Source: Lachnospiraceae bacterium (GTDB lineage: Bacteria; Bacillota; Clostridia; Lachnospirales; Lachnospiraceae). Taken from it: a DNA stretch of 64,000 nt. The DNA lies in NCBI GenBank assembly GCA_024403455.1, contig JAKSRR010000008.1:1-64000 (forward strand), read 5' to 3'. The translations under genes were made by a program, and so were the position numbers. The stretch's first letter is position 1; every line of letters begins with the position of its first letter. Positions 45,511 through 47,518 of this stretch are shown here, piece after piece. The notes below the pieces were generated by a model that saw nothing but the letters and a program-made list of their open reading frames with translations, was not told the origin of the DNA and did not search any database.

Positions 45511-45538
45511 AAAATACCTTCTAACACTATTTTATCAA
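45511..45538 (-). promoter_or_regulatory. possible promoter of the guanine deaminase gene
   Basis: Minus strand TTGATA (45533-45538), 16 nt, TATTTT (45511-45516). It is 21 nt upstream of the start codon and directly downstream of the repeat array. The -10 hexamer is weak. Confidence 0.4.
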
Positions 45539-45540
45539 AT

Positions 45541-45732
45541 AATGTTGCCATATGCATTATTCTCTTCAGTAGGAAAGAATGGCGCCACATGCATTATTCT
45601 CTCTTCAGGTGGAAAGAATGGTGCCACATGCATTATTCTCTTCAGTAGGAAAGAATGACGCCCCATGCATTATCCTCTCTTCAGTCAGAAAGAATAACGC
45701 CCCATGCATTATCCTCTCTTCGGTCAGAAAAG
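45541..45732. repeat. tandem repeat array, five 37-40 bp units
   Basis: Five head-to-tail units begin at 45541, 45578, 45617, 45654 and 45693, with lengths 37, 39, 37, 39 and 40. Each has the core ATGCATTAT followed by YCTCT(CT)TTCAG and ends near GGAAAG or CAGAAAG. Most length changes come from one lost CT. Units 2-3 and 4-5 form two subtypes (CCACATGCATTATTC and CCCCATGCATTATCC). There are no spacers, so it is not a CRISPR array, and unit lengths not divisible by three argue against coding. Confidence 0.85.
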
Positions 45733-45744
45733 AATATTCCCTCA

Positions 45745-45814: not shown

Positions 45815-46714
45815 TTAGTCTCCCTGGGTTGCTGGATTGACGTGCACCATGATGTGTTTTACTTCTGGAAATTTGGTTTCTATTTCATCATGTACATTTT
45901 CGGCAATCTGATGTGCCTCATTCAGTGTAAGGTCGCCGCGAAGAGCGATTTCCATATCTACATAAATTTTAGGGCCAAACATTCTGGTTTTTAAGGAATC
46001 AACGCTTATAACTCCCTTAACATTTAGTGCCGTATTCTTGATGGCTTTATATTCTTCCTCATCACAGGATTTATCCACCATCTTATTGACTGCATCAGCA
46101 AAGATTTCTAGGGCGGCTTTCAAAATAAAAATGCAGATTACTACGGAGGCAAGCGGATCTAGGATTGGATAGCCGAGACGCGCTCCTAGTATACCAACAA
46201 GTGCACCAATGGACGAGAAAGCGTCGCTTCGATGATGCCATGCATCAGCCCTAAGTGCTGTGGAATTAATCTTCTTGGCTGCCCGAATGGTAATCTGATA
46301 CATACCTTCTTTTACCAGAATAGAGACGATGGCTGCTACTAGCGCAAGCACACCAGGCACTTTTAAATCCTGCGTTTCCCCCTGCAGGATGATCCGCATT
46401 CCTTTATACCCAATGCCTACGCCCACACCAGCTAACAGTACGGCCAAAAGAATGCTAGCAACACATTCCAATCTCTCGTGCCCATAAGGGTGCTCTTCAT
46501 CAGCTTCTTTTCCAGAAATGCGAAGTCCAATCATAACCACAATTGTGCTGAACACATCCGATGCAGAGTGCACTGCATCAGAAACCATAGCACCAGAATG
46601 TGCTAATAATCCTGCTAAAGTTTTGAAAATTGTAAGAACTGCATTGGATAATAAAGATAAAACAGATACTTTGTTCGCGATACGGAAATATTCTTCCTGA
46701 TTTTTACCTTGCAT
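45815..46714 (-). CDS. cation diffusion facilitator, probable Co/Ni efflux
   Basis: 299 residues with six membrane segments and a cytoplasmic C-terminal domain. The metal sites of the CDF family are present: HSGAMVSDAVHSASD (second segment pattern HxxxD..HxxxD) and DAWHHRSDAFSS (HxxxD of the fifth). The C-terminal domain ends in HIMVHVNPA. CDF proteins exchange a divalent metal for protons across the membrane. A NiCo riboswitch in the leader points to cobalt or nickel as the inducing metal. It is monocistronic. Confidence 0.93.
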   Translation of the reverse strand: MQGKNQEEYFRIANKVSVLSLLSNAVLTIFKTLAGLLAHSGAMVSDAVHSASDVFSTIVVMIGLRISGKEADEEHPYGHERLECVASILLAVLLAGVGVGIGYKGMRIILQGETQDLKVPGVLALVAAIVSILVKEGMYQITIRAAKKINSTALRADAWHHRSDAFSSIGALVGILGARLGYPILDPLASVVICIFILKAALEIFADAVNKMVDKSCDEEEYKAIKNTALNVKGVISVDSLKTRMFGPKIYVDMEIALRGDLTLNEAHQIAENVHDEIETKFPEVKHIMVHVNPATQGD

Positions 46715-46740: not shown

Positions 46741-46820
46741 TCTGGGGTAGGTAGTCTTACTGTCCTGCATAATTGCTGCCCTAAGGCCCGGCTTCCCGTA
46801 GTGGTGCCTGTTCAGTTATC
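46741..46820 (-). promoter_or_regulatory. NiCo (czcD) riboswitch
   Basis: The minus-strand leader of the CDF gene contains, in order, ACTGAACAGG, AGCCGGGC, GGGCAGC and GCAGGACAGT. These are the conserved junction segments of the czcD/NiCo aptamer. They are joined by short helices: GCC/GGGC for P3 and GCA-AUUA-UGC for P4. P1 (ACUG/CAGU) and P2 look weak. An extended -10 (46824-46829) ends just before the aptamer. The known class binds Co(II) or Ni(II) and turns efflux genes on. The ribosome site AGGAGG (46721-46726) lies 15 nt past the aptamer and its GGUGC could pair with the aptamer's GCACC, suggesting control of translation. Confidence 0.8.
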
Positions 46821-46823
46821 GAT

Positions 46824-46829
46824 ATTATA
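46824..46829 (-). promoter_or_regulatory. extended -10 box of the riboswitch leader
   Basis: Minus-strand TGTTATAAT. Transcription from here would begin at about 46817, the first paired base of the aptamer. No clear -35 box is seen. Confidence 0.55.
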
Positions 46830-46852: not shown

Positions 46853-47518
46853 TTATTTTTCAAATGTCTGAAGTTCTTTTACAAATGCCTTTGTATTTGC
46901 CTTTGCATCCCCTAGGAAGATGGCGCTGCCTGCAACAATAACATTGGCTCCTGCTTTTAACGGTGTTTCCACATTATCTAATTTCACACCACCGTCCACT
47001 TCAATCAATAGTTCATCTAATTTGTGGGTCTTGGCATGCGCCGCAACCTTCTCGATTTTCTCCGTGCATTTAGAAAGATAGCTCTGTCCACCGAAGCCAG
47101 GCTGCACAGTCATGATGACTGCCATATCTATCTTGTGTAAATACGGCAATAACTCTTCTACAGGCGTTGCTGGATTAATTGCAAGACCAACCTTTGCCGT
47201 GGTGTTATGCATTCTAGCCAAAATTGCATCTGGATCCTTTAACGTCTCTAAGTGCACAGTAACCATATCTGCACCAAGTTCCGCAAATTTCTCGACATAT
47301 TTCTCTGGCTCGGTAATCATTAAATGCACGTCCAAAAATAAATCCGTGCTCTTCTTAACATTCTCAAGAACCGGCATTCCGAAGGATATGGAAGGAACAA
47401 ATACTCCATCCATCACATCAAAATGCAGATAATCCGCACCACCCTTTTTTACCTGGTCAATCTGTTTTCCCAGCTGCAGAAAATCTGCTGAAAGGATGGA
47501 AGGTGCTAAATGTATCAT
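46853..47518 (-). CDS. rpe: ribulose-phosphate 3-epimerase
   Basis: 221 residues. LAPSILSADFLQLGKQI, HFDVMDGVFVP, VHLMI, TVQPGFGGQSYL and EVDGGVKLDN are the family blocks, including the metal-binding His and Asp residues. It interconverts ribulose 5-phosphate and xylulose 5-phosphate in the pentose phosphate pathway. It is the last gene of the priA-to-rpe cluster, 3 nt after rsgA. thiN, which often follows, is absent. Confidence 0.97.
   Translation of the reverse strand: MIHLAPSILSADFLQLGKQIDQVKKGGADYLHFDVMDGVFVPSISFGMPVLENVKKSTDLFLDVHLMITEPEKYVEKFAELGADMVTVHLETLKDPDAILARMHNTTAKVGLAINPATPVEELLPYLHKIDMAVIMTVQPGFGGQSYLSKCTEKIEKVAAHAKTHKLDELLIEVDGGVKLDNVETPLKAGANVIVAGSAIFLGDAKANTKAFVKELQTFEK

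Follow-up and report, generated by a model that had tools for sequence, protein, structure and literature searches.

The leader of a CDF cation-efflux gene in the 64,000-nucleotide stretch of DNA analysed here (the window) carries a compact homologue of the NiCo (czcD) aptamer without the terminator found in nearly all detectable members of the class, and may operate as a metal-ON translational switch through pairing of its P2 arm with the Shine-Dalgarno (SD) region, a tentative reading whose probability we place just short of even. In the proposed mechanism, the P2 5' strand GGCACCACUACGG would leave P2 when metal is absent and pair with the SD region CCGUAUAGGAGGUGC, blocking ribosomes; the metal, be it Fe(II), Co(II) or Ni(II), would fold the four-way junction, P1 and P2 would form, and the freed SD would switch the CDF gene on. 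That the P2-SD complementarity is functional, and that metal binding is kept despite a G-to-A change at 46766, are both points that we infer, and the ON direction is taken by analogy from the class.

Organization of the leader and of the CDF gene

The leader elements and the CDF gene described below lie on the minus strand. The extended -10 element TGTTATAAT (46832-46824, with the -10 hexamer at 46829-46824) and the SD AGGAGG (46726-46721, 6 nt upstream of the ATG at 46714) were both read directly from the sequence. No -35 element is recognisable near this extended -10, and a two-hexamer scan of the minus strand lists no promoter there; transcription would be expected to start at about 46817. 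The aptamer homologue (68 nt, 46825-46758, delimited by covariance models) directly adjoins the extended -10, in line with the sequence-only reading that preceded this work, and is followed by a 43-nt spacer containing the SD and then by the ATG.

The downstream gene (46714-45815) encodes a protein of 299 aa matching Pfam Cation_efflux (1.3e-49) and ZT_dimer (2.6e-26) as well as TIGR01297 (5.3e-74); with these matches and the agreement of the covariance models, the earlier proposal that a NiCo leader precedes a CDF gene holds. Among solved chains, FieF/YiiP-type pumps are the best match, and alignment to them reveals that His replaces the first Asp of their DxxxD motif, giving HxxxD, a second HxxxD occurring later in the protein. 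The DxxxD motif of FieF/YiiP-type pumps lies in TM2. Because HxxxD stands where these pumps have DxxxD, the metal handled by the CDF protein is not readable from its sequence.

A divergent member of the NiCo family

The four conserved segments of the class, AACUGAACAGGC, GCCGGGCC, GGGCAGCA and GCAGGACAGUA, follow each other in the expected order within 46817-46758, as had been noticed beforehand, and the Infernal search suggested at that time did return a match to the Rfam NiCo model (RF02683, 46825-46758, 34.5 bits, E 3.4e-6, cmscan of 361 nt), at a score below the gathering score of 37 bits. The latter is an annotation cut-off and not a biological trait, and it is because of this shortfall that the leader is absent from a standard whole-window Rfam scan. 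The sub-threshold score is also what speaks for a chance resemblance, in which the leader would not be a NiCo homologue at all; against it, the leader is the top NiCo match of the whole genome by far (E 4.9e-6, the second-best reaching only 16.2 bits), on the correct strand and directly before a CDF gene, and it is recovered with 36.0 bits (E 1.4e-8 in 624,583 bases) by an independent covariance model, R1, trained on 50 other NiCos with the window leader excluded. Chance resemblance is thereby refuted for practical purposes, and we regard it as scarcely credible. Model R1 also finds a NiCo match (E 2.2e-5 or better) upstream of 49 of the 80 CDF relatives kept, and a terminator overlapping the aptamer passes our test (described below) in 48 of these 49 leaders, the last one (L089) having one by eye. 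On its matches to both models, the leader can safely be considered a real but divergent aptamer of the NiCo/czcD family placed before a CDF gene.

In covariance-model alignments, the P1 5' strand ACUG (46816-46813) pairs with CAGU (46762-46759), and the P2 5' strand with its loop occupies 46808-46796, where GGC pairs with GCC (46792-46790) in the aptamer and where the putative anti-SD of the alternative fold is found. All 14 named core pairs are standard pairs, so that the P1-P4 four-way junction can form in this one sequence. The aptamer is short for the class (68 nt against a median of 94 over 213 hits, a few equally short ones being present in the phylum search), with P3 and P4 of 3 bp each and P2 of about 5 bp; the low Rfam score probably comes mainly from these short stems and from a missing 5' segment. 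An Rfam cut-off can thus miss compact NiCo members. The leader shares with RF02683 NiCos the P1-P4 four-way junction, the ordered core segments, the site before a CDF exporter gene and 12 of 13 near-invariant bases, whereas it differs by its missing terminator, its score below the gathering cut-off and an A for the first G of GGGAC.

The core was compared over three segments in 320 distinct aptamers, including that of the window and leaving out L252, L303 and L327; in each of the 13 columns retained, conservation among the other 319 is 93% or more. At these positions 275 aptamers show no deviation and 45, that of the window included, show one to four, which makes a single core deviation uncommon but not disqualifying. 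The J2/3 segment GGG (46789-46787), a metal-ligand segment of the class corresponding by homology to G45-G47 (the numbering is our inference), is kept in the window, its three bases being present in 313, 319 and 316 of the 319 other NiCos, respectively. The deviation is found in J4/1 (46766-46764), which reads AGG where the class has GGG: at 46766, the first G of GGGAC, the window alone has A, the others having G (317/319) or T (2/319). According to the review PMC7689651, the two main Co(II) ions are coordinated by G46, G47, G87 and G88, while G45 contacts site 3. On the basis of symmetry between the two GGG segments, 46766 would correspond to position 86, and would be a neighbour of the ligands rather than a ligand. 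This natural A-for-G in a metal-binding junction lends itself to testing which bases of the junction determine affinity and selectivity for metals. The two sequences with T at this position, L298 and L301, belong to one genus and have UGGAC for GGGAC; both are below the Rfam cut-off, and both pass the terminator test.

Among 35 genomes of the window's genus, no leader related to that of the window was found besides itself, the other matches being short stretches at E 0.0077 or worse, and the nearest CDF protein of the 34 remaining genomes shares 60% identity.

An aptamer without a terminator

No hairpin followed by a T run was found by two detectors between the aptamer and the ATG (46758-46714), so that the terminator is missing as first described, and the hidden one that could have undermined a translational switch was looked for there without being found. 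To what extent is this absence unusual for the class? Searches of the window's genus, family, order, class and phylum, together with the genus and family of genome G991 (see below), supplied the NiCo hits; once L002-L004 and L015, which were weak hits, and duplicate entries for the same place had been set aside, 326 remained. A first detector found no terminator in 23 of 213 hits, most of them canonical by eye, and a folding-based test was used instead, in which a T tract (5 of 7) must follow a single hairpin with 5 bp or more and an energy of -7 kcal/mol or better, within a span that starts 30 nt before the end of the aptamer and runs for about 120 nt past it.

This test is passed by 310 of the 326 hits, in agreement with the earlier statement that the class usually acts through transcription termination, and in 304 of the 310 the hairpin begins within the last 30 nt of the aptamer, thus overlapping its 3' end. 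A more distant downstream hairpin accounts for the other six; one of them, L252, is no NiCo, and the other five, L177, L225, L377, L419 and L431, show an overlapping hairpin and T tract by eye. Visual inspection of the 16 failing hits indicates that L303 and L327 are not NiCos, that L399 is truncated by the end of its contig, and that ten (L239, L280, L380, L383, L387, L405, L411, L413, L423 and L447) have a terminator-like hairpin, missed by the test on account of a long or hairpin-bearing loop or of a short or broken T tract. The only intact NiCos without a terminator are therefore that of the window, L308 and L320, with best hairpins of -3.4, -3.3 and -5.2 kcal/mol, respectively. Absence of the terminator in the window is real, and it is rare among detectable members of the class; the rarity holds for these only, because the stricter filters used in searches of more than 40 genomes lose weak matches, and divergent NiCos, the likeliest to be terminator-less, are under-sampled.

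An ordinary NiCo transcription-termination switch with an overlooked terminator would have the high pass rate of the class in its favour. It was already disfavoured by the agreement of the two detectors, and the weak hairpins near the window leader, one at 46605-46588 as well as the best one mentioned above, are both within coding sequence; we consider it very improbable.

Predicted pairing between P2 and the SD region

The sequence-only reading had also pointed out that the SD segment GGUGC (46722-46718) can pair with GCACC of the aptamer (46807-46803). The two are indeed complementary, and the pairing extends further, CUACGG (46801-46796) facing CCGUAUAG (46732-46725). The complete SD region (46732-46718) would thus form with the P2 5' strand a helix of 11 bp, for which RNAduplex gives -15.3 kcal/mol, a stability equalled in 3 of 1000 trials in which the P2 loop was shuffled. 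The predicted SD-aptamer pairing probability is 0.50, a value matched by 10 of 1000 P2-loop shuffles and by 118 of 1000 spacer shuffles. When leaders are ranked by this probability (281 with a start codon recognised within 250 nt, the other 45 of the 326 being excluded), the window comes 21st. Since the 18 higher-ranking leaders besides L308 and L320 all pass the terminator test, pairing at the level of the window can be incidental.

Opening the SD is predicted to require 5.4-7.7 kcal/mol in the free ensemble and 3.8-4.3 kcal/mol once the aptamer is formed (the ranges reflect the length of coding sequence included), a change in the ON direction. With 18 nt of coding sequence the difference is 1.6 kcal/mol, and it is matched in 36 of 500 spacer shuffles, and in 43 of 500 when the P2 loop is also shuffled. 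A competing local hairpin, ACCGUAUAG...CUAUGCAAGGU (46733-46706), is predicted with part of the SD in its loop and the AUG in its stem. It appears when the aptamer is enforced (18 or 40 nt of coding sequence) and in the unconstrained minimum free energy structure with 18 nt, while the SD-P2 helix appears instead in the unconstrained optimum with 3 or 40 nt. Because this hairpin covers the start codon even when the aptamer is formed, the cost of opening the whole stretch from the SD to the AUG changes by only 1.1-3.4 kcal/mol. One optimum retains P3 and P4 alongside the SD-P2 helix and others do not, and the whole leader is no better folded than its shuffles (z 0.36). Compared with the free ensemble, that with the aptamer enforced loses 6.7-9.0 kcal/mol of stability, which metal binding would need to make up for.

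As in translational ON riboswitches, the SD of the window leader is predicted to be sequestered without ligand and released upon aptamer folding; a difference is that such a device is not described for NiCo in the literature searched, in which, as far as the available part of PMC7689651 goes, the mechanism given for the class is intrinsic termination. For the window, a P2-SD switch is only modestly supported by these predictions, the direction being right, the size modest and chance a possible source of both, and the evidence is weaker than for L308 and L320. The earlier suggestion of a switch acting on ribosome access is therefore plausible in view of these two terminator-less precedents, but in the window the pairing is only modestly above chance and a local hairpin is predicted to hold the start codon, also when the aptamer is formed.

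Two further candidates for translational control

The aptamers of L308 (genome G1090, 995-901, minus strand) and L320 (genome G991, 101-191) both belong to genus g524, in another family of the class, and both lie upstream of a CDF gene. Their predicted SD-aptamer pairing probabilities, 0.998 for L320 and 0.993 for L308, are the first and second of the 281 leaders. In both, CUUCUUU in P4, at the usual site of the 5' arm of the terminator, pairs with the SD AAGGAGG, the pair next to this helix being A-U in L308 and G-C in L320. With the aptamer formed, the SD is predicted to open at a cost of 1.2 instead of 11.9 kcal/mol in L320 and of 2.4 instead of 5.6 kcal/mol in L308, the gap between aptamer-enforced and free ensembles being 17.4 and 11.9 kcal/mol, respectively, and the distance from aptamer to start codon 42 and 46 nt. 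With an SD predicted to be almost fully sequestered, these two leaders are the clearest candidates for translational NiCo riboswitches.

The fact that the only two other terminator-less intact NiCos rank top two for SD pairing provides good comparative evidence for translational NiCos, and such switches probably exist, on the basis of structure predictions for two related sequences. The window resembles L308 and L320 by the absence of a terminator, a downstream CDF gene and an SD predicted to pair with the aptamer, whereas its anti-SD is in P2, with a probability of about 0.50, instead of in P4 at 0.99, and the GGGAC core that it has altered is intact in the other two. The NiCo class may then have exchanged its terminator for control of ribosome access at least twice, in the genus of L308 and L320 through P4 and independently in the window through P2, there within a stripped-down aptamer with a unique core substitution and possibly an altered metal affinity or selectivity; we hold this broader scenario to be conceivable and on the whole doubtful. 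If true, a class described as transcription-terminating would also control translation, via two different arms of one aptamer, illustrating the ease with which expression platforms are exchanged.

Decay or another output?

Could the window leader be instead a decaying riboswitch, having lost its terminator and mutated a core base, with a CDF gene expressed constitutively from the extended -10 promoter? This is the main rival to the P2-SD switch, and one to which we give a considerable probability, if well below even. The missing terminator, the A at 46766 where nearly all others have G, and the score below the Rfam threshold are all consistent with it, as are the occurrence of degraded NiCos in the window's own genus (the remnants L062 and L059, see below) and the lack of any NiCo hit at E 0.01 or better in 26 of the 35 genomes of that genus. 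On the other hand, all but one of the near-invariant bases are kept while the variable stems are short, and a core preserved to this extent is not what random decay should leave; moreover, none of the core pairs is prevented from forming, and the stability of the isolated fold is average. Decay by loss of the fold is accordingly unsupported, as P1 and P2 of the aptamer taken alone cost 3.5 kcal/mol to form, against a median of 3.36 kcal/mol (289 scored of the 326 hits). Alternatively, the aptamer may be functional with an output other than P2-SD pairing, such as mRNA stability, Rho-dependent termination or modulation of the start-codon hairpin. The local hairpin predicted with the AUG in its stem while the aptamer is formed would suit the last of these, and an SD-P2 pairing only modestly above chance leaves room for all three; against them, no specific feature of any was noticed in the general sequence reading and fold predictions made here, and we judge an output of this kind unlikely. 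Between these alternatives, the P2-SD switch is still the reading that we tentatively prefer for the window.

The remnants themselves are found in two genomes of the window's genus, at L062:1353-1414 (plus strand) and in a matching stretch of L059, in each case before a CDF gene. Both lack P2 and GCCGGG, and both keep P4, GGGACAG and a full terminator. The L062 remnant scores 16.9 bits, and that of L059 was recognised by eye only. These leaders could be permanently OFF or otherwise altered.

Metals sensed by the class

The sequence-only reading had named Co(II) and Ni(II) as the ligands of NiCo riboswitches. Cooperative binding of Co(II)/Ni(II), or of Fe(II), counts among the traits of the class. 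A response to Co and Ni in vitro stands, within a broader set comprising Co, Ni, Fe, Zn and Mn according to the review PMC7689651. Considering how available these metals are inside cells, the same review expects Fe(II) and Mn(II) to be the only ones bound there, and describes the cognate metal as unclear. Another review, PMC11477304, lists the class as Fe(II)-sensing, and the assignment to Co(II)/Ni(II) is less certain than first stated. Intrinsic termination is the mechanism given in the corresponding parts of PMC7689651 and PMC7917058, and the review PMC9481103 counts 783 NiCo representatives, with no tandems. No report of a translational NiCo riboswitch was found in the literature searched, outside of which lie three primary NiCo papers of 2015, 2020 and 2022; absence in print is thus not established.

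Neighbouring features

Upstream of the NiCo leader and on the same strand lies rpe, with its stop at 46853, itself preceded by rsgA, prkC and a PP2C phosphatase gene (identified by reading their translations only). No terminator was seen between rpe and the NiCo promoter (46853-46829), where an AT-rich inverted repeat is visible by eye, and read-through from the rpe operon may therefore also carry the aptamer. On the other side, between the CDF gene and the next gene (deaminase), a tandem array of about five units of 39 bp, with a super-unit of 76 bp, occupies 45537-45735.
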